Shown piece by piece: positions 21,445 to 64,000 of a stretch of 64,000 nucleotides of DNA. A program made the position numbers and the translations under genes. This DNA is from Asterella californica (taxonomy: Eukaryota; Streptophyta; Marchantiopsida; Marchantiales; Aytoniaceae), in assembly GCA_036924285.1 (NCBI GenBank), contig JAYKYS010000016.1, positions 6,634,001 to 6,698,000 of the forward strand. The letters are read 5' to 3'. Each line of letters begins with the position of its first letter. The stretch's first letter is position 1. The notes beneath the pieces are model-generated. The model saw only the letters and a list, made by a program, of their open reading frames with translations, had not been told where the DNA came from and did no database searches.

Positions 21445-21445
21445 A

Positions 21446-21457: not shown

Positions 21458-21558
21458 AGGAAACTCTAAGAGAGCGGATTACCCCTCTTAGAAGGACCTT
21501 TGATCGAGGTACCTAGCAATTGGAACTCTGAGTGCACTGAAAGGATCAAGAGAGCTAT

Positions 21559-21986
21559 GTGATGGATGGGGGTAGATTTCCAGCTCCAGAATTACCATTC
21601 ATGAATCCTTTCCATATCAAGCTTATGTATATGCGTCGAGAGCATTTTCGAGTGTATCTTGTTTATCATTTCGGTGAGGATTTCATGGGTCAAGTGATGA
21701 ATTCGCCAGTCCCGGTGATTCTTCCAGTAGTGACATATGCAGCTAGTTGGGATTTGACCGTCTACATCTTGATTTAGTGAGCATGGATCTAAACTTACCC
21801 GCTCCTGTTCCCTTCAACACGTGGGTGGAGATCCGCTATGTCTGCAGACCGAAATGGTTACATAGAGAGTTTGTGATTAGAAATTTTGGTGAGGATTTCT
21901 ACCGCGAGATAATTGATTCTCCTGTCTCTTTTGTAGTACCTGTAGTATACGAACGTTTCCGAGTGGCCGTCATAACTCTGTACTAG
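21559..21986 (+). CDS. Two tandem related ~70-residue frames in the element A leader
   Basis: Two short frames lie between the primer site and gag, about 21562-21777 (MDGGRFPAPELPF...) and 21783-21986 (MDLNLPAPVPF...). Their products align along most of their length. Both start MD, then PAP..PF, then share F..FGEDF, SPV and a PVV end (HFGEDFMGQVMNSPVPVILP against NFGEDFYREIIDSPVSFVVP). This looks like a duplicated module diverged at protein level. I do not recognise the family. It could be a leader protein, an extra N-terminal gag module, or captured host sequence. Confidence 0.5.
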
Positions 21987-22031
21987 GAGAAGCTTGAAAC
22001 TTAGGTGTCGTAAGAGAGAGAGAGAGCGATC

Positions 22032-23156: not shown

Positions 23157-23221
23157 TAAATGCACCTCGCGGCCTTACTGGTGCAAGGAGGGAGAAGAAA
23201 GGCGAGGGAAGGAGAAGGAGA

Positions 23222-25118: not shown

Positions 25119-25198
25119 ACAAAATTGATCGAGGGCACAAAATCGATGCACAGACTGTCGCAGCAAAACCTTCAAGAACCATCACCCGCAACCATGGT

Positions 25199-26563: not shown

Positions 26564-26575
26564 AAGGGGGGAGGT
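26562..26575 (+). other. Element A polypurine tract
   Basis: AAAAGGGGGGAGG overlaps the integrase stop codon and lies directly against the 3' LTR start at 26577. That is the expected plus-strand primer position. Confidence 0.9.
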
Positions 26576-26576
26576 T

Positions 26577-27030
26577 TGTAATAAGTAGAGTCCTACTTAT
26601 CAACTAGAGGAGAAATTGGTTTGGTAGAAGTCCTTGGTATAAGAATTAGTTACGGCTAAGTTGGCCGAAGAATACATGCAGCAAATAGTACTTCTACCAA
26701 TAGGCGAGTGCGCCAAAAGTCCGCCGGGAAACTTCCAGAAGGAAGTTTCTAGAATGAAGCTTCTAGAACTTTCCAGCCGGGAAGCTTCCAGAAGGAAGTT
26801 TCTAGAAAGAAGCTTCTAGAACTTTCCAGCGAGCCTTCTACGTGGCTCATTCTGAACCTCTAGATGTTGTTCTAGATCTAAGGCTGCATGTAAGCCACAT
26901 CAGCGATCCGCGTGAGAGATGAGCATTGGCCGGAAGCTGATCATGTACTATTCCTCTCACTATATAAAGGCTGCGAATGCACCACCACGGGCATTCGAGT
27001 TTCGAGTTCACTCTAGAGCCTCATCTTACA
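26577..27030 (+). repeat. Element A 3' LTR with intact TATA box
   Basis: 454 bases, TG...CA, matching the 5' LTR except for about 12 single-base differences. The heat-shock-element array lies at 26727-26829 and has two exact CTAGAACTTTCCAG motifs (26763-26776 and 26816-26829). The TATA box is TATATAAAGG at 26961-26970. A promoter here would read outward toward 27 kb and beyond. Confidence 0.96.
26727..26829 (+). promoter_or_regulatory. Heat-shock-element array in the 3' LTR of element A
   Basis: This is the same repeated GAA/TTC arrangement as in the 5' LTR, here better conserved. GAAGCTTCTAGAAC continues as a long alternating array, and two copies of CTAGAACTTTCCAG match the plant heat-shock consensus exactly. 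It is about 130 bases upstream of an intact TATA box. Confidence 0.8.
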
Positions 27031-27535: not shown

Positions 27536-28293
27536 CGTCGTGCACATACACATCGTTACACAACATACATCGCTGTCAGATATACACCAGACATACACAT
27601 AACACATAAACGTTTTCGTATACATACACAAGTGTACCACAATAATCTCAACAGAGAAATTACCATCTCTGAATGTCAACACAGCAACAACGATTACTCC
27701 CAAAACGGTCAAGCCAAACCCACTCTATGCTCGCACAGAATCCAAGTTACACTCAACAAGACTATCCATCATAGCCAAGAGCTTGAAGGCTCAACTCGAA
27801 GAACTAAGACTTCCAAGCCCTACCTGCGAAGTATACTCTAGTGGGCTATCCCAACAACTCGCTCTAACGACATTAACGGTCCTACCGAGATTAGTCACTC
27901 TACACTCGATCAACCTAGTCGAAGTGCCAAATTGACGTGATAGTTGTCGTGCGCATACACATTGCTACACTACATACATCGCTGTCAGAGATACACCACA
28001 CATATACATAACACAGGGGACGTTATCATACATATACATAAGTGTACAATAATTCCCCCCCCCCCCCAACTGACAGTTAGGTCACTCTAACTCCAAATAA
28101 CCCCATATCCCACTTACATGTTATACACCTTCGTGGGTGCAAGAATCAAGAGGTCGGGTGCTACATCGTCTCATCGTTAGTCGTCTGTTTGCAATCCATA
28201 CCACGCAAAGATCTAATCAACTATCTCTGCTATATACATCGAAGGTAAACCCACCGTCCAGTAGGAACGACATTGAGAGGTGGAGTCAAACAT
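27536..28293 (-). mobile_element. Fragment D: inverted 3' end of an element C relative
   Basis: Read on the minus strand it matches element C from the PHD finger at the integrase end through to the end of the LTR (element C positions about 62600-63351). The integrase tail covers 28293 down to about 28250. A polypurine tract of about 14 G follows (C run at about 28055-28068). The LTR then runs from 28048 to about 27536, roughly 513 bases. It is diverged from C at many positions and lost the rest of the element. It confirms the LTR boundaries proposed for C. Confidence 0.88.
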
Positions 28294-28933
28294 GACACAT
28301 TCTTTTCTCATCACAAAAATCATGAAGGAAAAGAAAAAGGGTCAGGTTTTTTTTACCCCGAGCTATTAGGTGCTATGAATCCTCCGCAATTTCACAAAAA
28401 ACTTTGGAGTTATAGTCTATGAAAAAAGAGATGGGGCCGTGAGGCTCCCGCTCTTCGTCGGAGGATGTTCTGTAGTAGCGATTATCGCGAAGAGATATTT
28501 TTTACTGCTTTGCCTTTTCTTGGTTTTGGTCAAGTTCAACACACGACGAAATATAATGAATTACCTTCGCTGTTATATGACCCTTAGTTCTTCGATTAAT
28601 CATTCCAACTCACCACACAAAGTAGTTTAAGATGTGTTTTGCTTACTTTGCGAGTTTGCTTTTTTCTCATTGGAATATCGTTCTTGGTACTGCAATCTTC
28701 AATTGGAATTCCAGTCACTTCATTCTGAACCCGACGCACCAGAGCGAACTGCCCTCTCTCGCTGGTCGAGACCTTCAGACGAAAACAAAAAAGAAAGATT
28801 TTCTGCGCCCTTTGCTTGTTTTGATACATTACAGGGTTCGGCAAGTGGAGCCGGCGGGCCTCTCCTGCTGGTTGGACACTTCGAGCAAAAAAAGAAAAAA
28901 ATCTTTTGTTTTTTCGCTAATCATCATAAGGAC

Positions 28934-33416: not shown

Positions 33417-34760
33417 ATGGAACTGGTTAGAGTTATTGACGTTGAGATGATAACCAGTTTCGAGTTAGCAGTGATTCTTGAATTGCGAGATCAAGTTAGG
33501 GATGTGCATAGAAGAAATCTTGGTATCTGGATGAATTTTGAGCGATCTCTTCGAGAGGAGTTTCTTGAAGAGGATTCAAAGAGAGTTACTAGGAGAACGT
33601 TTCTGGACTGGGTGAGTAACAACTTGGTCTTGTGATGAGAATGAATGAGTTTTGAGAGAGTTTGATCAAAGATACCGACAACTTTCAACTCTAGAGCGAA
33701 TCACCTTAGATGCTAGGAGAACAGAGCTTTTAGTTACCGATGATGCTACGGCAGATCAATTATGCTTCATGTTGGCCGATCGATCGATTGAAAGAGGAGT
33801 TACTACTGATTGGAGAAGAGTCGAGGATGTTGTGGCAGTACTAACAAGACAGAGGCATGGAAGAGTGGTCGTGAGAGAGCGTCCGCTTGCAGAAGTGGCC
33901 TCTCAACCTCACGCTGCTCCTCAACTTGTTGTCCCGGCTGCAGTTCCTTTGATGCCAGTTGTGCCAGTTCTTGCACAAATGACACTTGTTCATAGACCTA
34001 CGGAGAACCATGATCAGCAGAATCAGATCAAAGACTTGATCCGGCAAATGCGAGAATTGAAGATAGAGCTAACTGGCTTGTAGAGAGAGCAGCCGTCAAT
34101 ACCTGCTGCTGCACGTCCAAGAGGTGCTCCTATTCTTAGATGTATCTGGTGTGATAGTCTTGATCAATTTCAAGGAGATTGTCAAGAGCTTTTGATTGCT
34201 TTGCGAGATGGTGTGGTTCGCTATCAAAACGGTAGGCTGCATCTTTCTTCGACTGGAGAGCCGTTGAACACGCAATTTGGACGAGAAGACATGAGAAGTC
34301 TACCTCAGATTGCTGCGGCTACAACTGTAAATGCGTTGATGGCATCGCCGTTAAATTCTGATGTATATGCTGGACAAATTGAATTTTCTAGTCCTACGTT
34401 GCTAGATAGGACTGCTGAGAACAATATTGCTCAAGTTCCTTCTCAAATACTGAAGAGAGGAGTCGAGTCTATTCGTAAGATCACTGGGTGGAGAGATCTT
34501 GTAGACATTATGTCTATCAAAGCATACTTGGACGTGATAGACACGTTCACTAGCAGGATGCTTCTGTAGAGGAAAAGAGGCGGAGAGAAGCCTCTGAACT
34601 TGATACTGGAGTTCCAGAGGAGACATGAGATAGACGGAGAGTCACAAGGAGGCGATCAGCTCCTCTAGAGGACGTCTCGTCTACTTCTGCAGCTCCTCTA
34701 TGGACCAGGTCCAATGGAGGACGTGCAGAGATCCCAGCAAGAACCAACGACTATTGGTAG
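33417..34760 (+). pseudogene. gag: B2 gag
   Basis: Several adjoining frames carry gag-like sequence: FDQRYRQLSTLERITLDARR and VREFD around 33650, the zinc knuckle near 34138, and GVVRYQNGRLHLSSTGEPL near 34210. The knuckle reads CIWCDSLDQFQGDC, with Gln where the zinc-binding His should be, so even a repaired frame would have a defective finger. Stops at 33633-33635 and 34081-34083 split it. Confidence 0.78.
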
Positions 34761-34953
34761 ACGGTTTACTGCCCAAGAGAAGAAGAAGGGACCGTCTTAG
34801 TTGGAGCAAACATAAAAACTTCTACTGATCTCAAGAGCATCTTGGAGTAGAGGATACTGGACGCACGAATCAAGTTCTTTCTTCGAGAGGTTCTTGGTAT
34901 TGCGAAGAGAGATTTTCATGAACTGATCATCGACATTATCAAGCAAGAGACAT

Positions 34954-35600
34954 GTGATGTTCGAGCAAGTAGAAAGTCAGATGATAGGTGTGATAGGAGC
35001 TTCTATAAATGATGTAGAATTCAGAATGGTGCATTTTTATGAGACTGATGACATAGAGTACCAACAAGAAGTGTTGGTTGCTGGTACCAACACTGCTGAG
35101 TTTGATGATGACGAAGTTGGCGACGAGAGTTCAACTACTGATAGTGATTTCAGAAAAAGACACTGGACTCGTGCTACAACTGCTACACGAGTTCGCCTTG
35201 GGAGTCTATCTGAACCTATTGCTGCTTTAGATGATTAAGGATTTGAGATCAACATCACGTCACGAGAGGTGTATGAAAGAGATCAGTGGTCTCTCGAACT
35301 GAACCATGGTTGGGTGTTACGTGTTGATAACAACCAAAAGGGTGAGTTATACGGCGCTTGTCCCTAACGTGAGGGTGAAGCTAGGTGATGTGGAGGTAGA
35401 TCAGCACTTCTTCGTGCAATCTTCTACTTCATATCTTGTGATTCTTGATCTGTCTTATATCACTGCAGTTCAAATGGAGACCAAGGTGATGACAGACGGA
35501 TCTCACTATGCTAGGATCCGTAGTCCGGATGATAGACGTTTGAGAGATTCTCTTATCTGTACGAGTAAGGGTTTTCAGAAACCACTCTTGTAGGACGAGA
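34954..35600 (+). pseudogene. B2 gag-pol linker and aspartic protease
   Basis: An acidic linker ending in HWTRATTATRVRLGSL is followed by protease-like sequence. The latter includes VRVKLGDVEVDQHFFVQSST, YITAVQMETKV and DGSHYARIRSPD, which are typical of retropepsins of this Ty3 lineage. A frameshift lies near 35335, where HGWVLRVDNNQKGELYGACP is in another frame. The catalytic Asp-Ser/Thr-Gly is not intact in the readable part. Confidence 0.75.
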
Positions 35601-35928
35601 TAGCAAGAGTGATGGATCTGCTACTACTATGATCTCGCTTGAGCAGCCTGAGAGATCACAGGAGGCTGACGAAGAGGTTGCTCAAGATTCTGAAAATAGC
35701 TATACTGTACATAGTTGGAAATCTGATTTGATGACTTTCAGTTCTAGTGATTGGAGTGAGTTCATGCGAGTAGAGGATCTGACTGAGAAGAGTAGAAGGC
35801 AGATGGAGAAGTATGCAGCAAATCTATGATGTACAGGAGTTCTGAATGAAGGTGAGATGATTTCTGGTGTTTACTAGGAGTTTGTAGGTGTACAGTCTTT
35901 CGTTCGTTGACTGGATAATGTAGATAGG

Positions 35929-37700
35929 TTGATGGAGCATATGGGAGGAAGGGTGGTGATCCTCATGCACTCTCGTAAAATCTATGAGAAGGTTGTCTCG
36001 TGCTTACAATCTCATCCTTATCCGAGACTGGAGAGCGGATGGAAGGATGCAATCTGCTGGTGTGGCTCTCGTCAAGAAGCAGAGATGCACACCAGATACA
36101 AAATTGTAGCAAAGACGGTGAAACTAGTGGCGATCCAGTTACCTGTTGATTCACGACAGCAGATGGAGTTAGCGGTCACTGAGCCTGTGCTTAAAGATCC
36201 TACACAGGTAGGACACCTGTTTACTCAAGAGACCCTCGAGCAACTCCAGATAGGAAGGGGTGGCTTCTTGACTGAAGTAGAAAAAAGAGCTTTCGAGCAT
36301 ATGATAGTTAGTCATGATAAGGCATTTTCTTTCTCAGCTGAGGAGATTGGTTGTGTGGATCCTAGTGTGATAGCTCCAATGGTTATCTTCACTGTTCCTC
36401 ATGTACTTTGGGACTTGAAGCCAATTCTGGTCTCTCGTGCCTTGCTACGGAAGGTTATTGAGTTATTGAAGGAGAGGATATAGATGGATATTCTGGAACC
36501 ATCTATGGCTCCGTACTCTAGCCGATGGTTCACAGTACCTAAGAAGACATGAGCTTTACGCTTCATCCAAGACTTACAACACGTCAGCAACATCACGATT
36601 TGAAACGTTGGGAGAGGACCTGTGGTTGATGAAGTAGCTGAGGCATTTGTTGGAAGATCAATCTGTTCTATTGCAGATCTGTTTTCATGTTACGATCAGT
36701 TTCAGCTTGTTTTAGAGAGTAGAGACTTGACTACCATGCGTACATCTTTTGGGTTGATGCGGATGTGTACTCTTCCTCAAGGAGCAACAAACTAGTAGCT
36801 CATACGCAAAACGCGATGCATATGAGCTATGGTGTTACGAGAGTTTGTACCTGAGGTCACTATTTTATTTCTGGATGATATCATCATGAAAGACTGTCCG
36901 GTGGAAGACAAAGATGAAACTGTGACTTCTGATGGTTGTAGAAAGTTTGTTGCAGACCACATTCGAGATGTGAGAAAGATTCTAGCACGTTTGCAGGAGG
37001 TACACCTCACTCTGTCAAGTCTCAAATCTCATTTTGAAATGTCAGAGATTGTGGTGGTGGATCATTTGTGTGGTATTTTTGAGAGGCGATCGAACTTAGA
37101 GAAGATAGATGCTATAGCAAGGATAGCAGACTGTACCAACATCACTGAAGTTCGATGATTCTTAGGAGCTTGTGTGTTCTTTCGCGTGAGTATTCCTCAT
37201 TATACACACATTGTCGAGCCTCTGTATGCACTCTTGAGAAAAGAGAAGAGGTTTACTTGGTTGCAAGATCATCACGAGACGATGGAAAAGCTGAAAGAGA
37301 TTCTAAAGTCTCCACATGTACTAAGGAGATTTAACTACGAGAGTGAGAGACTTGTGATACTGACTGTTGACACAAATCCAAAGACGATTCGATGGGCAGT
37401 TGGAAGATGCAGATGGTGTACTGCTTGTTTCTAGGTTTGGAGCTCGAATCTTAACAGACGGACTACGTAACTATCCTCAAATGAAGCGTGAGTTGTGGAG
37501 AGCGGTTACTGCTATGAAGGTAGATCGAGAGCTCTTGATAAGAGCCCGTGTGGTACTAGAAACAGATTGTTTGTCTTTGCTTGGTATGATAGCAAACTGC
37601 AATACACTAGACATAGAAATGCTGCTATGGATTGCTTATATCTGAAGTCTGAATCTTGAGCTGAAACATATAGCAGGGAAGGATAATCTTGTTGTAGACA
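35929..37700 (+). pseudogene. pol: B2 reverse transcriptase and RNase H
   Basis: The frame from 35929 leads into RT. Recognisable blocks are MAPYSSRWFTVPKK, ALRFIQDLQ, VVDEVAEAFVGRSICSIADL, DLTTMRTSFGLMRMCTLPQG, the active site FLDDIIMK, and RNase H (LVILTVDTNPK, RVVLETDCLSLLGM). Stops include TAG at 36481, and TGA at 36601, 37156 and 37643, each where relatives have Arg (or Gln for TAG). It is clearly dead. Confidence 0.85.
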
Positions 37701-37724
37701 TGTTATCTAGGGCTTGTTATACAT

Positions 37725-39174
37725 ATGAGGATGAGATGGTTGCAGAAGTCGAAGATGAAGAGAAAAGCGACGTTTGGTGCCAAGTTGGAACCACTGTCAT
37801 TTAAAGAGGAGTTCTACATGGAAAAATTCTGTGATATCGGATTTTATCTGAGTTCATTATGCAGACGAGAAGGTTGGAGTGACGCACAGTTCAAGCAGAT
37901 CAGGTGAAAGACATACAGTTACTTTCTACATGAAGGTTATCTATGAAAACTTCCGAAAAGAAGAGACGGAATGCTTGCTAGAGTGGTGGATGATCAACCG
38001 ACAAAGCTGAATCTGCTTAAGGAATTTCGTGACACCTTATGGATTGGACACCGTGGAGTTTGGACTACGTACACGAAGATGAAGCAGAGATACTGGTAGA
38101 AGGGTTTGTATCAAGACGTGGTGGATTTTGTTGGATTGTGTCTGCACTATCAGTTCTACTCTAAGATCCGTTACAGAGATGGACTTGTACCTACCTATCC
38201 ACCCAGTATCCATTTTCAATGGGTCCTTGATCTTGTGATGATGCCGCTGGGATTGTGAGGGATGCGCTACTTGGTTTTTGGCTCAAGAAGATCTCTCCGA
38301 CTACGTGGAGGGACGAGCACTACAGACAAAAACTATAGAGAATATATGTAGATTCGTGCTTGAAGTTATTATATGTCGTTACGGATCTGTGGGAAGACTC
38401 CGCAGATAAGGACGAGTTGAGAGGTGCAGAATCGAAGGAGTTTTTTACTCGTTATGGAGTAAAGCTTCGACTTACTACTGCCATGGATCCATAGGACATT
38501 GGTAAGAGTGAACGAGGACACCTTTCTATTGTTTACACTTTAATGAAAGCATGTGATGGTAGGTCTAGAGAATGGCCTAGACTACTTTCATTTGCTTTGT
38601 AGGCTGATAAAACTACACACTGTACCACGACTTGCTATATGCCGGTTGAGTTTATGTTGGGACAGAAGCCAATCATGCCTTCTGAGGAGGACTTTCCTAC
38701 ATGGACTACGCTATCGTGGGAAGATGGTATAGATCGTACTTCACTCTTTGCTTTACGAACCAGACAGTTAGAGCGGAGGGAGGAGGATCTTGCTGAAGCG
38801 CAAGAGAAGTTGAAGATCGCTCGAGTCAGAAACAAGGAGCATTTCGACAAGACTCACAGACTACGATCAAAGCCGATACATGTTAATGATTGGGTTCTGG
38901 TGGACGACAACACGCTGGAGAATGGTTCGGGTCTTATGTTGTGTTAGATGCTTATGAAAATATCACTTATAGTTTACGGGAGCTAGATGGTACTCCTTTG
39001 AAGCTATCTGTGGTTGGCAAACGTGTGAAACTGTTCAAAAAGCGCGGAGGATCAGTAGAGTTATTCAATTTTCTAAAGTCAGAGCAGAGGATAACAAGAG
39101 ACCAAGACGCCTCGGCTACTGAAGAGGATGAGACGGAGGAGAGTGATGATGATGAAGAACAGACCGAAGGATGA
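37725..39174 (+). pseudogene. B2 integrase
   Basis: Decayed integrase runs through several frames. The best stretch is 38639-39174, with MPVEFMLGQKPIMPSEEDFP, TRQLERREEDLAEAQEKLK and NKEHFDKTHRLRSKPIHVND, followed after a frame change by YVVLDAYENITYSLRELDG. It ends in an acidic tail rich in Glu and Asp. No chromodomain or PHD finger was recognised. Confidence 0.8.
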
Positions 39175-39228
39175 AGAGGTTGGCACATGCCAGAGGATGT
39201 GTAGGTTTAGAGAGGATGGATGTCTTGA

Positions 39229-40398
39229 TGTGAATTATTTCACATTGTAAATAATTCACCTCTCAGTTAGAAGTTAGTCTCTCTGAGTGAAGTTAAGACC
39301 TTAGAGAATTCAATTCTGGAGGAAGTGAGCATTCACAAATCTGAAAACACCACGGCATAAGTCTCATCGCGCTGATCACCGTGGCATGTTCAAAAGTTGC
39401 AAACAGAGTTGGAGGCGAAAAGTTACTTGGAGTTCTTCTACAAGATTTATGATATCGAGAAATGTATCATAAATCTGAGTGAGTTCAAAAATTATGTTTA
39501 AGATTTTTCTCATGTAGATTGTAGTATGTAATATTTGTTTTCATTTTAAAACATACAAAAAGACTATGTCTAGAGAAAGTTATGGCAGTTCGTGTTAGTG
39601 AAGGAAAGACAAAATACCGCGCTCTGCTAGCATATCAGCTTAGAAACTGGTCTCTAGAACAGTTGTGAGATTGGCTTCCGTGCGTAGCTGAGTAAACCTG
39701 TAGGGAGGGGTCTCCGGATCAAATTCTCTCAGACTCACAACCGGCTTGGAGTAGGTTGGCCCCTTCTGGAGAATATGTGGGGCACCAAGTTTACCTAGAG
39801 GCGGGTCACTAGATGTCCTTTAAACATATTGTGAATGCGAGACGTCTTCGTCTACCCCTGCACTAGTGCAGTCACCTGGTGTGGATGCTCGAGAGGGTTT
39901 ACCACCAGATTTTCGAAATGGACCTTATGCTAGAGGACTAACTCATCTAAGGATTGTCGAGGTCACTAGTACGAATGTTGTTGCGGCTCTCTAAGTCCTG
40001 GGGTAGCGAGATGGCATCAAAGATACTCCAAGTCGATATCAAATCTTTCGTAGAAAATTATAGATCTCGTCATGTGATTTACTTGGGTCAAAAAATCAAG
40101 TGAAACTGATACTTGAAGAGATACTTACGGCGTCTCGAAGTTCAAGGGGTCCGGAGAACGACAACAGCTGTAACTCGAGCTCCACATGTCATAACACGGT
40201 GATTCCGGTGGTCAGAGGTAGCCGTGGTGGAGTTACTTCGACTAAAGGTGTCTGAAGCTGACTGTACGGCCATCGATTCCTGAAGCTGACTATGGTCGAA
40301 TCGGTGACCGTCCATACAGATGAACGTGCGATGGCTTGTGATCTAGTCTTATAACGTGTTGGATTTTTATCAGTGTATTATTTTTCTGCTGCCATCTT
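39229..40398 (+). repeat. Probable B2 3' LTR region
   Basis: It begins TGTGAATTATTTCACATTG at 39229. The first ~90 bases match, in reverse complement, 58090-58176 inside element C, which supports an LTR end here. The region stops where the B-family leader starts again (40399). A perfect 11-bp hairpin lies at 39230-39259 (GTGAATTATTT / AAATAATTCAC). The right boundary is not directly shown because no full second copy exists in the window. Confidence 0.5.
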
Positions 40399-53722: not shown

Positions 53723-55442
53723 TTTAACGACGTCTCAGGAAGTAACAGGATCAGGCGCTCACAAACGCTGCTCAAGATGTGCCAGTATGCACCACCTCAA
53801 GAACACGACAATAACCAAACCGCTAAGGAAGCTCCCAAATCCCAGTACCGATCACAAAACGCCCGCCACCCTTCCGGCTTCGATCTTCCACCAAATTCTT
53901 GCCACCTTCTTAGACCTCCGCAAGACTGCTAACCTTGCCCCAAATTTTTACGATCAGTAGCAGTATACCTGCCTCAGGCTGTCTAAGCTCCACTCTCTCT
54001 CCGCTCTCCTCCACCCGCTTCTCGTCCACCGTCTGTCTATAGGACGCTGCTCGCGCCGTAGAGAATAACTCTCACCTCCAAACCGGAAGACGCAGTGTGA
54101 TGGAAACGAAATGAAAATCCAAGTAACTTTCAGATCAATCTCACCTCGCAAATAACGGCACCGGATTCATGTCACTCCACTTGTAGCCTGAGGACCTGGC
54201 ATTCAAGCAAAGCCGTTGGATAGAAGATCGACCAGGAGCCGGGATTGATTTCTTACTGTGTATAATGACTGCAGGAATTTGATGGTGGAGATTGACAGGA
54301 CCTTGATGTGGTCATTGTGGTGGACTGTCTTCCCTTGCGAAAGTTGCGATGAGACCGCGCCAAACCAAGTCACCCACTTTGGCGCGGGAAGCGGGCTAAC
54401 CTGGTGGAGAATCTTCCGATGACCCGGTTTTACCGGTCACTGCTTCGACCTGGTGCCTTTGACCGTTGCAGATCACTTGGAGCCTCTGGAGAAAGTCCTT
54501 CCAGATTTAAATGCTTTTCTCCTCGCTTGGAAATGAAACAATTGGAGGAGGTGAATAATATATAGTATTGGGTGCCTGACTTTTCAGATAGGTGTGAACT
54601 TGTGAAAGAGTATGAGAACTTGGGTATAAAAGCTAATCATATTGTTCTTGGACAATTTTAAAATCCGTGACTGGAATGCATATCATATATATGCATACTT
54701 CCTAAGTTGGAAAGCGGAGACAAGTAAAAAGATAGGGACAAAACCCTTGATGTATATTGGTTCTCGTCATGGCTGGAATAAGTTATGGATTAATGTTATA
54801 TAAAAAATTTATTGAATCGATTAATATCAGTTGGTACTCTGTAATATCAGTGTGTATTATGTTTAATTTATATTATCAATAAATATATTATATATTGAAA
54901 TGAAAATAATGAAAATGAAAATGAAAAATTTGATAAATATTAGATGTTAACTGAGGCAGGAAACCAGGAGGGTGCTCTGAAAATCTGGTTGGGATAAGCA
55001 AGTAGTTGCTTTGGGGAATAGTAGATGTCATCCATTGATGTTCCCATAGCCCTTTGCATTGCTGTAAGTACTTCCCCAAGCAAGTGGTTGGGGAAGTACT
55101 TCTGATAGCTCTTTGTATTGCTTTGCTTCTTCCCAAGACATGCGTTTTTCTTTTTTTTAAATGTGACAAATCTACACAAAGAAAACTCGGAGATATCAAA
55201 ACGAACAAAAATGTACCTATAAGGAGATGGTCAGTATGAAGCTGGACGAATAGAGAGGTGATTTTGTTGCATTGGTCGCTCTAAAGTTTATTCTGTTTGG
55301 TCAATGGTGACAATCCTCTTGAAGGAAGATCCCTTGTATGATAGTGATCAATGCTCTTGTCAAACAATCATGATCGTCTAACTAATATGTTATTTGAGAT
55401 AAATAATGTAAAGGCTAGATAGTACAATCGGTTTTGACAAGT
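53723..55442. other. Promoter side of the capping-protein gene, then spacer
   Basis: The first several hundred bases, read on the minus strand, are the probable promoter and 5' UTR of the capping-protein gene. From about 54.5 kb the sequence is AT-rich. A perfect hairpin at 55066-55101 is listed separately. A frame on the minus strand near 55.0 kb has no secure identity. Confidence 0.45.
55066..55101. repeat. Perfect 14-bp inverted repeat (hairpin)
   Basis: AAGTACTTCCCCAA (55066-55079) and TTGGGGAAGTACTT (55088-55101) are exact reverse complements with an 8-base loop. Beyond the stem, CTTTGCATTGCT and CTTTGTATTGCT are direct repeats. Confidence 0.85.
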
Positions 55443-55726
55443 TGTCACGTCAGTTTGGTAACTCGGCTAGGTTGACCGAGTGCTAAGTGACGGACCCCGG
55501 TAAGGCCGTTAGGACAAGTTGGTGAGAGTGCCCACAAGGGGTATACTTCGCAGGTAGGGGCTTGGAGACCTCAGTTCTTCAAGTTGAGTCTTCAAGCTCC
55601 TGGTTATGGTGGGTAGTCTTCTGAGTGAGATCTGGATTCTCTGCGAGCACATAGTGGATTTGGCTCGACTGTAGTGATTGTCTAGTGCCTGTTGGCATGA
55701 GGGAGTGAGTACATATCTTGTTATCA
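55443..55726 (+). repeat. Element C 5' LTR core (truncated)
   Basis: TGTCACGTCAGTTTGG to CTTGTTATCA, 284 bases, aligns end to end with 62961-63244. The terminal 106-bp segments present on both sides of the core in the 3' LTR are missing here. The next 34 bases (55727-55760) are an inverted copy of the core around 55550-55583 (CTTGAAGAACTAAGGTCTCC), so the 5' end is rearranged. Confidence 0.88.
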
Positions 55727-55864
55727 CTTGAAGAACTAAGGTCTCCAAGCCCCTACCTGGAGCGGAGTGCGAAGTGCGAGAGTGCGAAGACGGAGCCCAA
55801 GCCCGCCGCAAGCCAGCTTGCTGACGTGCGTGAGAGAGATATCCAAGTTTCAGTTGTGTGGGAA

Positions 55865-55976
55865 GTGTAAAACCAGTAGGTCACCCATCCCAACACTATT
55901 TCTGGACTTGGATGCTTAACTCTGTAGTCTCAACTTTGGCTGTACCACTAGACCAATAGCTCTTGGTGTCTTACAG
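55865..55976 (-). ncRNA. 5S-rRNA-like sequence with tRNA-like A box, in the element C leader
   Basis: On the minus strand, GGGATGGGTGACCTACTGG (55891-55873) is nearly identical to the C box of plant 5S rRNA. GAGTTAAGCATCCAAG upstream corresponds to the 5S A-box region, at the right spacing. Before it lies TTGGTCTAGTGGTA (55956-55943), which fits a tRNA A box. The 5' and 3' ends do not match 5S rRNA, so it is a derived sequence and not a working 5S gene. It may act as an internal polymerase III promoter. The orientation is opposite to element C. Confidence 0.65.
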
Positions 55977-56044
55977 GGATGCGTGCAAGTACTTAGGGGT
56001 TGGTTTAAGGTAGTAGGAGACCTGCTCGCACGTTCCTAGAGGAT

Positions 56045-56914
56045 GTGGTTACCTCTAGTGCTGAGGTGGTTCAGCAAGAGATGATAGATGTGTCCATGGA
56101 GTCGAAGATCAGGACAGCTACTAGTGGTACTTGGCAAGCAGCGGCTGCCAGACTAGGTGAGTTACCAGCTAGGCCGGCAATTGACCGTGCTGGATTGGCA
56201 CCAGGTGTAGTGTTGTTGGACAACAGAAGTGGTATCTTCTGTTTGGTGGCACCTTCAGGGAAGGTGTATCGACCACATAAAGTGTTGTTAGACTCTAGAG
56301 CCCAACCGTTGATGTTGAGGAAGGCGGCGTGTATCAGTTTGGGGCTGAGGAAGTCCGAAATGGAGAGATGTCCATTCCAACTACAGACATCTCTAGGAGG
56401 ATCAGGAGGTACAACTCTACACATGACACGCGAGTTGCTGACGGTGAGAGTTAGACCAAATCATCCCACTGATGGTTCCATGATGAGGGCCAAGGCTATC
56501 GTTACGGCCACGGAGTCTTATGATGTATTGGTTGGAGGTGCTGTATTGTATCCTATGGGGTTCGTGATCGACTATTGGGCGGAGACAGCATCTTACAGAC
56601 CAGATTGGCAGTCCGGTGAGGGAGGAGTGAGCCGCTTACCAGTGCGGTTCAGTGCTAGAGTTGGGACAACGGAGCTTACATCAGAGACGATGACATCCGT
56701 TGCAGAGTTCAGTTCGGTCATCACTTGGCCTGATGAGTTGTTAGAGAGCAATGTCCATGCGGAGGATACTCCGGTCTTTGAGGAGATGGAGGACATGCCT
56801 AGCATGTCTACGTTAGTACCATCTGCCTTGGATGTTCCATTTTGGAGTTCGAGCGGTGTCGAGTTGAGAGTTTTCCTGGGAAGGGCGGAACCTTCTGGCT
56901 GTGATAGATCTTGA
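56045..56914 (+). CDS. Element C aspartic protease region
   Basis: An open frame of 289 residues. KVLLDSRAQPLMLRKAA corresponds to the retropepsin active site, in which relatives read D-S/T-G-A; here the Gly is Arg, which should inactivate it. Further family-like sequence follows (SYDVLVGGAVLYPMGFVIDY, ETASYRPDWQSGEG). The frame would belong to a longer gag-pol polyprotein. It runs into the interrupting segment that separates it from the methyltransferase. Confidence 0.75.
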   Translation: MVTSSAEVVQQEMIDVSMESKIRTATSGTWQAAAARLGELPARPAIDRAGLAPGVVLLDNRSGIFCLVAPSGKVYRPHKVLLDSRAQPLMLRKAACISLGLRKSEMERCPFQLQTSLGGSGGTTLHMTRELLTVRVRPNHPTDGSMMRAKAIVTATESYDVLVGGAVLYPMGFVIDYWAETASYRPDWQSGEGGVSRLPVRFSARVGTTELTSETMTSVAEFSSVITWPDELLESNVHAEDTPVFEEMEDMPSMSTLVPSALDVPFWSSSGVELRVFLGRAEPSGCDRS

Positions 56915-56929
56915 AGGCTGTGTTTAGTC

Positions 56930-58176
56930 TACTCAGGGAAGCGTTGGACTTCAGGCTATGGTTTCTTACTATACAGAGGTAGGCTTCAGATCAAAAGGGA
57001 ACAGTATAAACACTCACTCAGGTCGAATGGACCCTCCAGTATGTTCAGGAAGTGAAAATCAGATCAGACTAGTAGTAATAAGGTCAGACAGCAAACTTTA
57101 ACAGTCTAGAATAAAAAACATACGATAGTTCTGACTTCAGAACTCCTCCTACATGTAAGTGAGGCCCTACTGACCATACACACGAAGTTTCAGCTTGAGA
57201 TCAAATCAGAGTGTCGAGATATGGACAGAAATGTTTCGAGCAGAGAAATTACGGCAATTTCTGGTACCCAGACAGCTATTTCGACCTAGAACAGAGAATT
57301 GGCTCAATCACTTTCGAATATTCTTACAGGATTTGCAGTACACAGCTTGCTGAACACTCCTGTGAAGTTGGGCCTCTTGATTGTACACAGAACTCCAGAT
57401 CTCGCTCTCTGAAGTTGATGTTCTAGATTGAGAGCTTTTCGGACCCCCTCTATTTCAGCGGTCGCCTCGAATTACTCAATCACTCAATCGACATGAAAAT
57501 TTGGGGACAGTCGTAGCCCTACTGGCAGTGAACGTGACCACGAAGGTTTGAAGCGATTTTCTCAAATCTACTGCGATTGACACCGAAAACTCCAAAATCA
57601 ACAGAAGTGCTGCAATTCTGACACAAATCGAACTTCAATCAGCCATAACTCCTTCTTTATTGCTCCAAATCGATCAAAAATTTCTCTGACAGTGCTTGGC
57701 ACGACGAACCCTATCTCCTTGTGCTCTCAGATTTCGAAGTGTCCTCACCAAATGCTCGAACTCCTCTTAAGACCCCTACTACTAAGTTTAGTAGTACATA
57801 AAGACAAAATTGGACCAATGGGAGTTCATAGCTTCACTCCCCTGTCCTTTTGTGTCCCAAACCACGTGGTGACTTGATTTTGCACATAGGCTACCACGTC
57901 AAGCCCCTAAAGTGCCAGTATAGACCCTAAACTACATACGAAGACATGTAAAACAACGCGTAATCTCGAAAGATAACCTAACCTCGCTAGGAAGCATGCA
58001 TGGACGACACGTAATTACAACCCATGAGCTTAAGTCCATCTACATGGTAATGAACCTACTAAGACTCAAAAATATATAAAATCCTCCAGTGTCGACTTCT
58101 CTGAGGTCCTACTTTCACTCAGAGAGACTAACGCTTGACAGAGAGATGAATTATTTACAATGTAAAATGATTCACA
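56930..58176 (-). mobile_element. Probable LTR insertion inside element C, opposite strand
   Basis: The right edge reads ...AAAATGATTCACA at 58176. On the minus strand this begins TGTGAATCATTTTACATTG, matching the start of the presumed B2 3' LTR at 39229 for about 90 bases. The rest has the style of LTR sequence but diverges from B2. No gag or pol is present, so it is perhaps a solo LTR of a B relative. The left edge and a target-site duplication were not found. Confidence 0.55.
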
Positions 58177-58192
58177 TCACGACAGCGGAGAG

Positions 58193-59299
58193 TTGCAGCA
58201 GTATGCTGACCGGTTGGTGCAGCAGGCTTGGAGTGAAGCCTTTGTACCGTCAGTAGAGAAACATCGGAGTGTCTCTGTTACTGGCCCTGTGACCTTAACA
58301 CCGCTGGATACGACTCTTATTGTATGGCAATATCCAGAGGAGGGTGTGTGTGTGCTGGAGCTATTTGGAGGGATCAGCACAGGTTTGGCTGCGGTATTGC
58401 AGGCAGGCATACAAGTACAGCGATACTTGTATGTGGAGAGAGATGAGATCGCAAGACGCGTCTCATTGCGTCACGTGGCACGTTTGGTTCAGAGATATCC
58501 TGAGTTGTTGTCTATATCAGCCGTTAGAGGATACCAGCAAGCATTGCCGTCAGATATTTCGCTGTTGGGGGCGCGGGATCTCACGTTTGTTGGCACCATT
58601 CACTTGGTGATAGCGAGGTGGCCATGTCAAGGTCACACGCGTGCTGGGAGAGGTCAGGGTTTGCATGACCCACGATCTAGGATGTTTTGGGAGATGTTAC
58701 GAATCTTACGACATCTCCAGATGCATCAGATGGATTCTTCAGTGTACATCTTGGAGAATGTTCCTTTGTTGGGTGATGCTCGTGCACATATGATGACGAG
58801 TGTGCACCAGGTTCAGTCTTGGGTCGGACCGGCAGTGTTGTTAGATGCGGCGAGAGTGAGATCTCGTGCACATCGTCCACGATTGTGGTGGACGAACTTG
58901 TTACCGAGGGAGGTGCTCAAGCGCGCACACGATGCAGTGAGACGATCAGCGCACCTCACAGTTGATGGCATCTTGGATGCAGGACGACGATCTCAAGTAG
59001 TGAGAGTCGTCGATAGGTCACCCATGGCAGTTGTGAACCTAGTGAGACGATATATGACAACGTTATCCACTTTGGTGAGCTTTCCAGCGTCACATGCTTA
59101 CAGAGATGGAGGACCTGGGCTTGTGTGGGATGCTCGGTTACAACAGTTGGTGGAGCCCAATGCCGACGAGAGAGAGAGAGAGAGAGAGAGCGATGGGTTT
59201 TCCTACTGGTACAACGGCAGTAGCTTTAGTGTCGGAAGCTTCACGTCGTCAAGTGTTGAGTCAAGCAATGGACTTGAACTGCTTGACATGGATTATTAG
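58193..59299 (+). CDS. C5-cytosine DNA methyltransferase domain carried by element C
   Basis: The open frame contains methyltransferase motifs in order. Motif I VLELFGGISTG (58352-58384) binds S-adenosylmethionine. Motif IV is WPCQGHTRAGRGQGLHDPRS, with the catalytic Cys codon at 58625-58627. Motif VI ILENVPLLGD has ENV at 58754-58762. RVRSRAHRPRLWWTNL resembles motif VIII and the region after it. The reaction would be methyl transfer to C5 of cytosine in DNA. The initiation codon is unclear because the domain was probably part of a polyprotein. The core has no stop over almost 1 kb, unlike flanking pol. Real domain sequence ends at the (GA)n tract at 59168-59190; the remaining codons of this frame are out of register. 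Related elements in dinoflagellates and charophyte algae have been reported. Confidence 0.9.
   Translation: MQQYADRLVQQAWSEAFVPSVEKHRSVSVTGPVTLTPLDTTLIVWQYPEEGVCVLELFGGISTGLAAVLQAGIQVQRYLYVERDEIARRVSLRHVARLVQRYPELLSISAVRGYQQALPSDISLLGARDLTFVGTIHLVIARWPCQGHTRAGRGQGLHDPRSRMFWEMLRILRHLQMHQMDSSVYILENVPLLGDARAHMMTSVHQVQSWVGPAVLLDAARVRSRAHRPRLWWTNLLPREVLKRAHDAVRRSAHLTVDGILDAGRRSQVVRVVDRSPMAVVNLVRRYMTTLSTLVSFPASHAYRDGGPGLVWDARLQQLVEPNADERERERESDGFSYWYNGSSFSVGSFTSSSVESSNGLELLDMDY
59168..59190 (+). repeat. (GA)n microsatellite inside the methyltransferase frame
   Basis: A pure GA run encodes Arg-Glu repeats in both usable frames. The methyltransferase reads in one frame before it and in another after it, so repeat-length change is the likely cause of the frameshift. 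Confidence 0.88.
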
Positions 59300-59555
59300 C
59301 CTTGGATTGGCTGAGCAGCGTCGGATGCGATTGATGGGTGTTACTGCTCGGACACTCCTGAGCTTTTTGCCTACCGGGTCAGTGGAGGCAAAGGCTGGGG
59401 GCGAGGCACGTGGAGTTCGTCATCCTTGGACATCATGGGATGTCGTAGGAGAGAGTGTGGAGCTTGCAGCTAGAACTGCAGAAGTTTTTCGCACAGTAGC
59501 GGTGGAGGTTGTTGGTGGTGAGCAGAAGGAAACTGCTCCAGAGACTGCAAGATAG
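59191..59555 (+). pseudogene. Methyltransferase C-terminal part, frameshifted
   Basis: After the GA tract the domain continues in the frame that also opens at 59094: AMGFPTGTTAVALVSEASRR, QVLSQAMDLNCLTWIISLGL. This resembles motifs IX-X of DNMT3-type enzymes (FGFP..YTDVS...RQ.LLG..W...V). A low-complexity linker follows to TAG-type termination at 59553-59555. Both parts would be needed for a folded enzyme. Confidence 0.8.
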
Positions 59556-59585
59556 CAGTCAACGACTTCGTCTTCTACCTCTAGC

Positions 59586-60545
59586 ATGGTGACAGAGGAT
59601 ACTTGGGAGCCAGAGATTGGACCCAAGCTTATAGAAGAGGAGAGACGAAGAGTTCAGAGATTCCTGAAGAGCTACAGGAATTGTTTTGCCTTTAGTATGA
59701 AGGATTTGGGTACCTTGAAGGGACCGGGTATACGGATCGACTTGGCTAATGACACGCCAATCTTTCGACGTCCTTACAGGTACATTGACATGGAGAGAAC
59801 CTTGATCCAGAGTAGGACTCAAGACTTGATGGAAGCTGGGTTGGTGGAGATGTCGCATGGAGAGTATGCATCTGCCACAATTATGTCAGCAAAGAAGGAT
59901 ATGTATGGCAACTACACGGATAGGCGTATGTGTGGAGACTACCGTCCTATCAATCGGCAGACGAAGTCCGATAAGTATGCCATGCCGACACCTGAGGAGA
60001 TCTTTGATGCAGTGGGGCATGTGAAGGTCTTCAGTACTTTGGATCTTCGAGCAGGGTATCATCAGTTGCCGGTGAGAGAGGAAGATAAACCCAAGACAGC
60101 ATTCTAAGGGATTGATTCTCACGGCAAGGATTGTTTGTATTAGTGACGGTTCTTACCATTTGGGTTGAAGAATGCCCCTGCTGAATTTCAAAGAGTGATG
60201 GATAGGATCCTAGCAAGAATGGATTTTGTCAGATGCTATATTGACGACATCTTAGTCTATAGTGCTACAGTGGAGGAGCACGAGAGACACTTACGGGATG
60301 TGTTCGAGCGGTTGAGAGCTCATGGGTTGAAGTTACACCCTGGGAAGTGCAAGTTCTTCCAGGAGTTGATAGAGTATCTGGGTCACACCATCTACCCAGG
60401 TGGGTTGGGTGTTCAACAGACGAAGGTCGAGGTCGTTGCACGTATTCCACGCCCCACAGATGTGAGTCGAGTTCGAGCATTTGTTGGTTTGACGAACTTT
60501 TATCGTCGATACGTGAAAGGATTTAGTGCAATTGCGAAGCCTTGA
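59586..60545 (+). pseudogene. pol: Element C reverse transcriptase
   Basis: Blocks in order: NCFAFSMKDLG, PIFRRPYRYI, EYASATIMSAKKD, RRMCGDYRPINRQT, STLDLRAGYHQLPV, then after stops PFGLKNAPAEFQRVMDRIL, the active site CYIDDILVYS, LKLHPGKCKFF and FVGLTNFYRRYVKGF. The frame is broken by TAA at 60105 and by TAG and TGA at about 60139-60144, where relatives have Trp, Gln and Trp. A one-base deletion near 60541 (AKP|LTKLMK) moves the frame into RNase H. Confidence 0.9.
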
Positions 60546-61378
60546 CCAAGCTGATGAAGGTGGACCAGGAGTGGCAGTGGGGAGATGAGCAAGAGCGAGC
60601 TTTCGTGGAGCTCAAGGATAGGTTGACATTTGCTCCCATCTTAAGGAGACCCGTTAGGGGACGTCCTTTCCAACTGCACACTGATTGGAGTATGTTGGGA
60701 CTTGGAGCAGTGTTGACTCAGCATGATGATGAGAAAAAGGAGTTTGTGGTGACGTATGTCAGTTGCTCAAACAATTCGACGGAGGCGAGGTACAATTCGT
60801 ACGAGGGGGAGTGTTTAGCTGCAGTGTGGACTGTTGCACACTTCCGATGTTATCTGTTTGAGAACCCCTTTACTCTCATCACTGATCACCAGCCGCTCAA
60901 GTGGTTAATGGAGTCCGACAAGCTTACAGGGAAGCTTGCACGATGGGCTCTGATCTTACAAGAGTATGACTTTCAGGTAGTGCATAGACCGGGAGTTGCA
61001 AACCTAGATGCTAATGGGTTGAGTCGTAACCCGTGCACGAGTCAGCAGGATCAGATTGGGGCTCGATGGCATGATGAGGTTGATGAGGAGATAGTGCCAG
61101 GGTGGCATGCATCTGCCTTTCTTTGTGTGTTGGCCATGAACTCTAGTATGGAGGGCCAAGTCGTATCTTTCTCAAGTGAGAGAGTAGATGACGAGTCTCC
61201 AGATCCTGAGGGTGGAGATGGTGTTCCAAACCAGCGGGATATCCATGACGATGTGACCGTGATGGAGTATCTACATACTGGCGTGGTGGTAGGCACAGTA
61301 AGTGCCAAGGAGCAAGATCATGTCCTTCAACGAGCGAAGAGATTTCGACGAGAAGGACGACATGTACTTCGAGTGTGA
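60542..61378 (+). CDS. pol: Element C RNase H and linker
   Basis: An open frame with WGDEQERAFVELKDRL, the RNase H start FQLHTDWSMLGLGAVLTQHD, YNSYEGECLAAVWTVAHFRC, LITDHQPLKWLM, KLARWALILQEYDFQVVHRP and ANGLSR. Catalytic Asp and Glu positions are present. The region after residue 165 is a variable linker to integrase. It is entered by a frameshift from reverse transcriptase. Confidence 0.88.
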   Translation: MTKLMKVDQEWQWGDEQERAFVELKDRLTFAPILRRPVRGRPFQLHTDWSMLGLGAVLTQHDDEKKEFVVTYVSCSNNSTEARYNSYEGECLAAVWTVAHFRCYLFENPFTLITDHQPLKWLMESDKLTGKLARWALILQEYDFQVVHRPGVANLDANGLSRNPCTSQQDQIGARWHDEVDEEIVPGWHASAFLCVLAMNSSMEGQVVSFSSERVDDESPDPEGGDGVPNQRDIHDDVTVMEYLHTGVVVGTVSAKEQDHVLQRAKRFRREGRHVLRV

Positions 61379-61399
61379 GATGACGGGAGAGTACAGATA

Positions 61400-62680
61400 G
61401 TGCCACATCCATCCCATAGGGCACAGTTAGTACGACATGCTCATGAGGAGTTGAGACATTTTGGAGTGAAACGCACGTATAGCTTACTCCAAGGACAGTA
61501 TTGGTGGCGTGGTATGCACGTCGATGTGCAAAAGTTTGTTGCACGATGTGTGGTTTGTGATCGAGTACGAGCATCGTTTAATGCTGCTACTCCACAACTA
61601 CACCCCTTACCAATTATGGGGTTGGGTTACCGTTGGAGTTTGGATTTTGCGAGATCTTTATCGTTGACGGTATGTCATCATCGATATGTGTTGGTGATGG
61701 TGGAGCACTTCTCCAAGTGGATTGAGTTGGTGGCATTACCAGACAAGACGAGTGAAGAGACGACGTATACGTTCTTAGATTGAGTGCTGAGTCATTTTGG
61801 AGCACCAGCTGAAGTGCTGACAGACCAAGATACAGAGTTTCTGGGTAAATTTCAAGCCTTGTGCGATCAGGCGTTGATTGATCATTGAACTACGTCTCGA
61901 GATCATCCTGAGGCGGATGGTTTGGCGGAGAGGGTAGTTCAGACGGTGAAGAGAAGATTGCATAAGTATGGCTTGCAGAAGGGTCACTTGGGAGACTGGG
62001 ATGTGCAGTTACCATGGTTGGCTATGGGCTACCGTTTTAGCCGACAAGCGTCTTTGGCTTCCTTTTCACCGTATTTTCTATTATACGGTCGAGATCTAGA
62101 TTTACCTTCGGCCATTCGTCGTGATTCTGTTGAGGTGCTGAACCTTGATGACCCGGATATGTGGATGAGAGCATGTTCTCAACGAGTATAGACATTTCGG
62201 AGAGTTATGCCCATGGCTTTTGAGAATCTAGCAATTGCTCAGCATAGATACACGTTGCGATATGCAACTATCCGAGGAGGAGGTTATCGATCATCGATTC
62301 GTAGGTTTCATCCTGACGATTATATCTATCTGCAGCAGACTGCACCGACGACGTTGGATGTGACCACTGGATGCACTATTTTACGAGTGCGTGAGGTGTT
62401 ACCTTCTGGAGTACTCATGTTAGAGGGTCGTGATGGTGTTGTTTGGAAGAACCATGTGCGTAATTGCGTGCCATGTCATCTTCCCAACATCGATGGTACC
62501 GTTGACCCAAGCTTGGCAGTTGTACGAGCAGGCTTGAGGTGTATGTTGTGTGGGTCTGCTGGTGGAGCAGCCCGTATGTTGATGTGTGATGTTTGTTCGA
62601 GAGGTTGGCACCTGTCATGTTGGACTCCACCTCTCACTGTCATTCCTATTGGACGGTGGGTTTGTCCTCGATGTATATAG
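61400..62680 (+). pseudogene. int: Element C integrase with PHD finger
   Basis: HHCC zinc region (HAHEELRHFGVKRTYSLLQG, CVVCDRVRA). The core has SLDF, LTDQDTEF and ADGLAERVV as the D-D-E positions. Stops lie at 61781 (TGA), 61886 (TGA) and 62189 (TAG), where relatives read Arg, Arg and Gln. The last part, open from 62207, carries the C-terminal domain (LRVREVLPSGVLMLEGRDGV) and then a PHD finger. Apart from the three stops the reading frame is continuous. Confidence 0.88.
62540..62677 (+). other. PHD finger coding segment of element C integrase
   Basis: The pattern is C-x2-C, C-x2-C, H-x2-C, C-x2-C (CMLC; CDVC; HLSC; CPRC) with WHLSC and the typical Trp before the last pair (GRWVCPRC). That is a complete C4HC3 PHD finger. 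Such fingers usually read the H3 tail. It sits where chromoviruses carry a chromodomain. Confidence 0.88.
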
Positions 62681-62852
62681 CAGGGATAGCCGATTAGATC
62701 TTTGCGTGGTATGGATTGCATACAAGCGACTAACGATGGGGCAATGTAGCACCCGGCCTCCTGATCCTTGCACCCATGAAGGTGTATATCACGTAGTTGA
62801 GATATGGAGCTATCTGGAGTTAGAGGGACCTAACCGCTAGTTAGGGGGCGAT

Positions 62853-63351
62853 TGTGGTACACTTGTGTATGTGTATGACATCGTTCATGTGTTATGTGTA
62901 TGTGTGATGTTTCTTTGACAGCGATGTATGTTGTATAGCGATGTGTATGCGCACGACAGCTGTCACGTCAGTTTCGTAACTCGGTTAAGTTGACCGAGTG
63001 CAAAGTGACGGACCCCGGTAAGGCCGTTAGGACAAGTTGGTGAGAGTGCCCACAAGGGGTATACTTCGCAGGTAGGGGCTTGGAGACCTCAGTTCTTCAA
63101 GTTGAGCCTTCAAGCTCTTGGCTATGGTGGGTAGTCTTGTGAGTGAGATCTGGATTCTCTGCGAGCACATAATGGATTTGGCTCGACTGTAGTGATTGTC
63201 TAGTGTCTGTTGGCATGAGGGAGTGAGTACATACCTTGTTATCATTGTGGTACACTTGTGTATGTGTATGACATCGTCCATGTGTTATGTGTATGTGTGG
63301 TGTTTCTTTGACAGTGATGTATGTTGTGTAGCGATGTGTATGCGCACGACA
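62853..63351 (+). repeat. Element C 3' LTR (499 bp) with internal terminal repeats
   Basis: TG at 62853 follows a purine tract (TTAGGGGGCGAT), and CA closes at 63350-63351 (GCGCACGACA). The first 106 bases (62853-62958) and the last 106 (63246-63351) are direct repeats with about four or five differences. Between them lies the 284-bp core shared with the 5' end. Fragment D has the same three-part structure. Confidence 0.75.
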
Positions 63352-64000
63352 AAGTTGTTATCAGTAATTTTGTTATATTAGCATATTTTATGCTCAAAAG
63401 TGTCGATAAGACGTCGATGGAAAAACTATAAGTAATGAGAGAGCGGGAGAACTCAAGCTAGGGGTGAAGGAAACTGGATCCATGTGCTCCAACCACAAAA
63501 AATGTCTACCACTATCTTGATGATCACTCCTTCACTAAATTAGTATGACACTTGCAATCCAGCAATATCCGAACCTTTATAATAAAAATTAACTGAAAAT
63601 GATAAAAAAGGTAGTAGAACTAAAAGTCTTATCATTTATACAAAAAATGATGATTTTGAGAATTTTGAAGAATTTTGAAATATTTAACCATGAATCTTCA
63701 GTATTTGTCAACCTTTAATTTCATTTAACCGTATATATTGATAATCTAAATTACTGATCAATGGAGTTGTAAAATAGAAAAAGGCACACACATGTACAAG
63801 CTTATTAATAGGGGTATATATATTATATATATATAAGATAATCGAACAATATAAGTTGTAGACTTCATACATAAGTGTTAACAAATAAGAATTCATCAAA
63901 ATTATATATGAAAATCTTTTAGTGGCTCGCACCTAGTTTCCAAATTTATGTCTGGTGATCTCTCGAGACCAACGTATCATCAATTATTTCATTTGTTTCT
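63352..64000. other. AT-rich sequence, no gene recognised
   Basis: Nothing recognisable beyond AT-rich spacer with short TATA runs near 63820. Confidence 0.55.

Follow-up and report, generated by a model that had tools for sequence, protein, structure and literature searches.

The window analysed here is a stretch of 64,000 nucleotides from Asterella californica (contig JAYKYS010000016.1, positions 6,634,001 to 6,698,000), and it contains a whole, defective retrotransposon copy of 7,909 bp on the forward strand (55443-63351). The copy has TG..CA termini and is flanked by the target-site duplication AAGT (55439-55442 and 63352-63355). Comparison with relatives in the same genome identifies it as a decayed representative of a Ty3/Gypsy family that is young and carries a C5-cytosine DNA methyltransferase (DNMT) of the DNMT3 type. 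The family is multiplying, and the copy in the window is damaged.

The methyltransferase had been proposed in an initial annotation made from the letters of the window, and profile searches confirm it. The open reading frame (ORF) at 58166-59299 (+, 377 amino acids) matches the Pfam family DNA_methylase (PF00145) with 30.1 bits, above the cut-off of 22 (E 4.2e-07), and among solved structures its top match is DNMT3A (1.9e-08), with DNMT3A/B ahead of all others. Motifs I (LELFGG), IV (WPCQG), VI (ENVP) and VIII (RPRLWWTN) lie where they had been placed, and motifs I to VIII are in frame within 58184-59299 (+), which runs out of frame past a GA run. The annotated frameshift into a DNMT3-like motif IX-X region is also real: a (GA)11 run (59168-59189, +) within motif IX replaces a 12-nt in-frame stretch, so that motifs IX-X (from about 59190) and the tail of ORF1 are found in another frame (59079-59555, +), which ends with a UAG at 59553-59555. 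The run falls in DERERA codons and has 11 units in the window, eight in L002 and five each in L003 and L004, each of which loses the frame. The 12-nt stretch is kept at this site in 18 further fetched loci, and six loci are unmatched by the script's pattern.

Ahead of the DNMT, a protease region (56039-56856, +) forms the end of the gag-side ORF and shows the motif LDSRAQ, compared with LDSGAQ in open copies. The annotated order, with the DNMT between protease and reverse transcriptase (RT), stands, with the amendment that a 1,327-bp insert (56857-58183) precedes the DNMT, with homology to the family resuming at 58184, and that gag is missing along with almost the entire leader (positions 1679-4246 of copy L009 are absent, and its positions ~708-1423 are reduced to fewer than 70 bases). 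Because the insert runs from TG to CA and shows the 5-bp duplication AGCGG, it is read as the solo long terminal repeat (LTR) of another element; an inverted match to its end (58082-58184) lies at 39221-39323. Behind the DNMT, Pfam matches on the forward strand mark the RT (59556-60545, in two pieces, 59556-60107 and 60147-60545), RNase H (60527-61378), a fragmented integrase (H2C2 and rve, 61379-62191) and, at the end of ORF2, a PHD finger (62540-62674). ORF2 of this copy is broken into pieces.

A search of the Asterella genome (G000; 516,715,530 bases, 773 contigs) gave at least 109 scored matches from 5,400 candidates, and 34 of the 109 contain frames of 1363-1381 amino acids with no internal stop. 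Both ORF1 (1363-1371 amino acids) and ORF2 (1038-1041 amino acids) are open in 12 of the 20 copies fetched, a rate that is not genome-wide because these copies were selected mostly for long frames. Intact copies with one open polyprotein had been envisaged; the intact copies exist, with a UAG between two ORFs instead of one uninterrupted ORF. The open copies encode an ORF1 with Gag, protease and DNMT3-type methyltransferase, one in-frame UAG, and an ORF2 with RT, RNase H, integrase and PHD finger. The existence of a Ty3/Gypsy element with a DNMT3-type enzyme is thereby supported at the sequence level, with open copies in the same genome.

The domain assignments differ in their basis. In ORF1 of L009 the DNMT is the sole Pfam match. 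The names gag and protease were given there on the basis of location, of the motif LDSGAQ and of relatedness to protein P0137, in which zf-CCHC reaches the Pfam cut-off (22 against 20.8 bits) and Asp_protease_2 falls slightly below it (23.6 against 24.3). Matches of a GAG profile inside the DNMT region were rejected as an artefact, the profile having drifted into the DNMT. ORF2 of L009 contains RVT_1, RNaseH, H2C2 and rve in that order, followed by the PHD finger at residues 996-1040, and no chromodomain match was obtained with Pfam. The closest counterparts of this PHD finger are those of KMT2C (listed as MLL3 homolog), CHD4, DPF2/3, KDM5, PHF12 and PHF21A, several of which bind histone H3 tails unmodified at K4.

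The methyltransferase of L009 has the canonical motif order I-IV-VI-VIII-IX-X (ORF1 residues 977, 1063, 1108, 1148, 1196 and 1273), unlike the rearranged DRM enzymes, none of which is among the 50 matches listed. In both sequence and fold, its nearest solved relative is DNMT3. A structure prediction without alignment was unusable (predicted local distance difference test, pLDDT, 35.8), and the N-terminal ADD and PWWP modules gave no Pfam match in ORF1 of L009, the PHD finger being located at the far end of ORF2. A selection value of 0.14 across 16 copies, excluding those out of frame in the DNMT, indicates purifying selection; it is 0.29 across 19 copies when out-of-frame copies are included. 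The tail past the DNMT (L009 ORF1 residues 1291-1370 and its kin) has a ratio of 1.5, above 1, based on few changes.

The two ORFs of the open copies are in one frame, separated by the single UAG. At this junction the window reads UAG CAG UCA (59553-59561, +), and TAG CAG TCA is found in 26 of 28 loci, among which the window copy is L001, with L003 and L004 lacking the script's search string. The context CAGUCA fits type I leaky stops, the Tobamovirus type, in which UAG is followed by CARYYA (PMC5382211). In the element, the stop joins Gag-DNMT and Pol and is not part of a replicase gene, and readthrough is a prediction from sequence.

The ends of the element are permuted. The order A1-coding-B1-gc-A2-B2 is shared by the window copy and all ten young copies compared, nine of which have both ORFs open, and none of these 11 copies has identical LTRs directly at both ends. 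In the window, on the forward strand, the order comprises A1 (55443-55725), B1 (62851-62958), the gc dinucleotide of a CA-gc-TG junction (62959-62960), A2 (62961-63243) and B2 (63244-63351); A1 measures about 294 bases in young copies and 283 in the window, and B1 107-108. The element ends are TGTCACGT..GCACGACA, and TG..CA termini with exact target duplications of 4 bp, never 5, were found in 11 of 11 copies. The ten copies are very young, since their paired repeats differ at 3 of 3,970 bases, and the window copy, with 15 of 391 paired bases mismatched, is older than the open ones. A still older copy of the family, a 3' fragment of about 85% identity at 27537-28297 (-), retains the PHD end followed by B, A and B.

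Directly behind A1, the sequence CTCAAAGAACT is the complement of AGTTCTTTGAG at A+139, an 11-mer that arose in 26 of 200,000 mononucleotide shuffles of A. The complement is present in all 18 fetched copies with a script-detected 5' repeat, none having been detected in L021 and L022. In the window, the putative self-primer AGTTCTTCAAG (55573-55583, +; found by script, with complementarity extending back to 55553) faces the putative primer-binding site CTTGAAGAACT (55727-55737, +), which lies one base past A1 and whose complementarity continues to 55757 with one mismatch. This pair is altered on both sides, leaving a 31-nt complement with one break; L022 shares the window's version of A, with no leader in view. 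Upstream of B1, a G-rich run (AGGGGGG) ends 2-3 bases before the repeat. With the putative primer site behind A1 and the G-rich run before B1, reverse transcription would see the repeat B-gc-A, and the integrated form may then represent an end-joined circle that was opened at CA-gc-TG. Tf1/sushi and Tcn1 are self-priming Gypsy elements, chromoviruses with ordinary LTRs. Like the present element, they have a site behind the 5' repeat that is complementary to about 11 bases within it, and Tf1 primes with its first 11 RNA bases (PMC7175516; PMC6317226); the PHD finger in place of a chromodomain and the permuted ends set the element apart from them.

These features can be combined into one replication cycle, and we consider it likely that its parts operate together: dosing of Gag-protease-DNMT by the leaky stop, self-priming, integration from an end-joined circle, methylation of complementary DNA (cDNA) and targeting by the PHD finger. 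Most ribosomes would halt at the UAG and yield Gag-protease-DNMT, and a few would read through to the whole polyprotein. Because the DNMT lies on the Gag side of the stop, it would enter the particle at a Gag-like dose, beside the DNA under reverse transcription. The 5' end of the RNA would fold back as primer in the manner of Tf1, and reverse transcription would produce linear cDNA with B-gc-A repeats, the ends of which would be joined into a circle. The integrase would cut this circle at CA-gc-TG inside one repeat and insert it with a 4-bp duplication, giving A-coding-B-gc-A-B. The DNMT would methylate the new cDNA, in CG by analogy with a tested dinoflagellate enzyme, most likely mimicking host chromatin or shielding the cDNA until integration; that the element methylates its own copies, as the initial annotation had suggested, is plausible. 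Chromodomains are thought to steer the integrase in chromoviruses, and the PHD finger might play a similar part by reading histone H3 tails.

Several observations weigh against this cycle. The stop context is seen solely in closely related copies of one genome, so that its sharing is not independent conservation, and a hairpin 3' of the stop is not significant (z -1.34). The compensatory primer change occurs in the window copy alone, where the 31-nt complement could reflect a single aberrant copying event, and B1 lacks an adjoining canonical purine tract. Of the 18 copies in which the A2|B2 joint is in view (four of ten short stretches fetched do not show it), 16 have the same one, which is less variable than free end joining predicts. 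This uniformity suits a DIRS-like route, in which an internal B-A junction would serve as template, as does the repeat order, which equals that of DIRS elements. Such a route would account for the ends without an end-joined circle, but we regard it as rather unlikely: no tyrosine recombinase family is among the Pfam matches of L009 ORF1 and ORF2, the element has a DDE integrase (rve) and 4-bp duplications, and its putative primer site and G-rich tract suit reverse transcription of the ordinary kind, with B-gc-A as the repeat. Moreover, of the two deviant joints, one has an extra A and the other carries the first three primer-site bases plus filler, the latter speaking against an internal template. 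Membership in DIRS itself was rejected, given the rve domain and the duplications in 11 of 11 copies; to our knowledge, DIRS elements make no target-site duplication.

Alternatively, the DNMT could tame the element by marking new copies for silencing by host maintenance enzymes, so that it harms its host less and is kept for that reason. Purifying selection shows use and not direction, and a benefit for the host is raised in the discussion of de Mendoza et al. (PMC5890265). Of 363 substitutions between L009 and the window copy, 202 are C-to-T or G-to-A, as expected of methylated copies, but they are unpolarised and host pathways could explain them, because 105 lie in CHH, 50 in CG and 47 in CHG contexts. 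Dozens of near-identical open copies also speak against strong self-restraint, and taming is accordingly considered unlikely. An RNA target, either the element's genome or its primer, is more improbable still: RNA methylation has been suggested for an enzyme of a dinoflagellate long interspersed nuclear element that is inactive on DNA in yeast (PMC5890265), but sequence and fold are nearest to DNMT3, with the tRNA enzyme DNMT2 far weaker in sequence (1.5e-06 to 1.2e-04, against 4.6e-24). Finally, since several elements are nested in the window, DNMT, protease and RT might have come together by chance from separate insertions. This was rejected and can be regarded as practically negligible, since the order recurs in open copies and other species: protease and DNMT share one reading frame in 20 of 20 fetched copies, an RT ORF of at least 300 amino acids lies behind the DNMT in 19 of 20 (the exception being L027), and Marchantia proteins are built likewise.

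Relatives of the element are found mainly in bryophytes. Most of the 119 DNMT matches are unnamed metagenome or archive contigs, and the rows that name an organism are all bryophyte (Marchantia, Calypogeia, Sphagnum, Riccia) but for one Klebsormidium. This kinship, together with 85% identity between the RT of L009 and that of a Marchantia element, underlies the assignment to a land plant, which had been part of the original claim. The long Marchantia proteins P0120-P0134 (without P0123) combine protease and DNMT, most with gag and a few with RT. Among the 120 listed of 1,466 matches to ORF2 there are kin from Klebsormidium, Closterium and Tetraselmis, and in Closterium and Klebsormidium proteins the DNMT lies ahead of the RT. 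DNMT-like domains also occur in Gypsy proteins of the chlorophyte Tetraselmis (P0232, P0243) and the zygnematophyte Closterium (P0216, P0226, P0262). A second order, in which the DNMT follows RNase H and precedes the integrase and a PHD finger is terminal, is found in ten proteins from unnamed sources (P0142, P0143, P0197, P0198, P0204, P0206, P0208, P0218, P0221, P0227) and in two partial ones (P0145, P0146). An IMG/VR scan with P0002 gave no relative.

Both trees were quick ones with one support value. The RT tree (104 rows past a length filter, midpoint root for drawing) was built without an outgroup of DNMT-free Gypsy lines and without Tanacetum and Cordylochernes; in it L009 is part of a six-row group (support 99) that otherwise consists of Calypogeia, Marchantia and a single unnamed row. 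The DNMT tree (84 rows, comprising the named and the long proteins plus roughly one third of the remaining short ones), which has part of human DNMT3A as its single outgroup row, contains a 36-row clade (support 100) with every bryophyte-named row of the tree, above weak deep forks. In both trees P0202, the DNMT protein of Klebsormidium, branches among deep forks of weak support, apart from L009 in the RT tree, where other Klebsormidium proteins are nearer to L009; no DNMT is in view for these, and one in a separate ORF1 would look alike. DNMT and RT distances correlate (r 0.78 for 28 proteins; 0.85 for the 18 with the DNMT before the RT; 0.66 for the ten with it behind), which speaks for long joint descent with at least one change in the position of the DNMT. 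Tentatively, the elements may form a clade of self-priming Gypsy elements in the green lineage that predates land plants, with the reported independent capture in Klebsormidium as one branch, and that kept the DNMT3-type enzyme and the PHD finger along with leaky-stop packaging, cDNA methylation and an end-joined circle opened by a DDE integrase at CA-gc-TG. Its odds are lowered by the failure of the trees to give the DNMT element of Klebsormidium a position, and it seems somewhat less likely than its negation.

The work on retrotransposon DNMTs cited in the initial annotation exists and describes DNMT3s of dinoflagellate and Klebsormidium elements, which its authors attribute to independent captures (de Mendoza et al., 2018; PMC5890265). 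KnitGypsy-Dnmt3 of Klebsormidium nitens resembles the Asterella element in its Gypsy pol, DNMT3-type domain, DIRS-like repeat order and a DNMT under purifying selection (Ka/Ks < 0.2), and differs in its algal host and in having the DNMT in the Pol ORF instead of in an ORF1 ahead of a UAG (PMC5890265). P0202, which has the order protease-DNMT-RT of the window family, probably belongs to KnitGypsy. The dinoflagellate SymbioDIRS-Dnmt3 likewise carries a DNMT3 within a retrotransposon, with de novo CG methylation demonstrated and self-methylation proposed by the authors, but it has a tyrosine recombinase and represents a distantly related class (PMC5890265). In the accessible text of that article, no PHD finger, leaky stop, self-priming or comparable integration model was found, and the word PHD has no match in its main text. 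The Asterella element is tied to Ty3/Gypsy by its RT-RNaseH-integrase order with DDE integrase, TG..CA ends and 4-bp duplication; with DIRS it shares the split direct repeats A-coding-B-A-B, and with chromoviruses a histone-reader type of domain at the integrase end, which is a PHD finger and not a chromodomain.

No report of a bryophyte DNMT retrotransposon was found in full-text searches of an open-access library (subscription journals and supplements being outside this scope). The accessible text of PMC12344493 mentions streptophytes and dinoflagellates only, and a broad survey of plant LTR elements has neither the word PHD nor methyltransferase in its main text. The trait was found described only for algal retrotransposons, and a bryophyte member appears to be new. 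For Marchantia, five DNA methyltransferases and no DNMT3 are listed in the accessible part of PMC5784723; judged by their neighbours, the DNMT3-type sequences that the element-based searches returned from Marchantia belong to these elements, no search having been aimed at a host gene.

DNA methylation is the main weapon of plants against transposons. An element with a de novo type methyltransferase of its own would turn this weapon around, which can be tested in bryophytes, including the model Marchantia. The leaky stop would be a concrete reason for an abundance of the enzyme in particles. The combination of permuted ends and duplications of the DDE type suggests a route of integration that we found described nowhere and that, if borne out, would go beyond a variant of the known retrotransposon DNMT3s.

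The remainder of the window contains further elements. One at 20989-26874 has a pair of 300-nt repeats that are 97% identical, and its ORFs are Gypsy-like, the final one ending, by eye, in a chromodomain-like stretch. The decayed ORFs at 33649-38947 have, by eye, the appearance of another Gypsy element. An Rfam search of the window gave no match. Outside these elements, an ORF of 543 amino acids at 2591-4222 is one that we take, by eye, to be GRAS-family-like.
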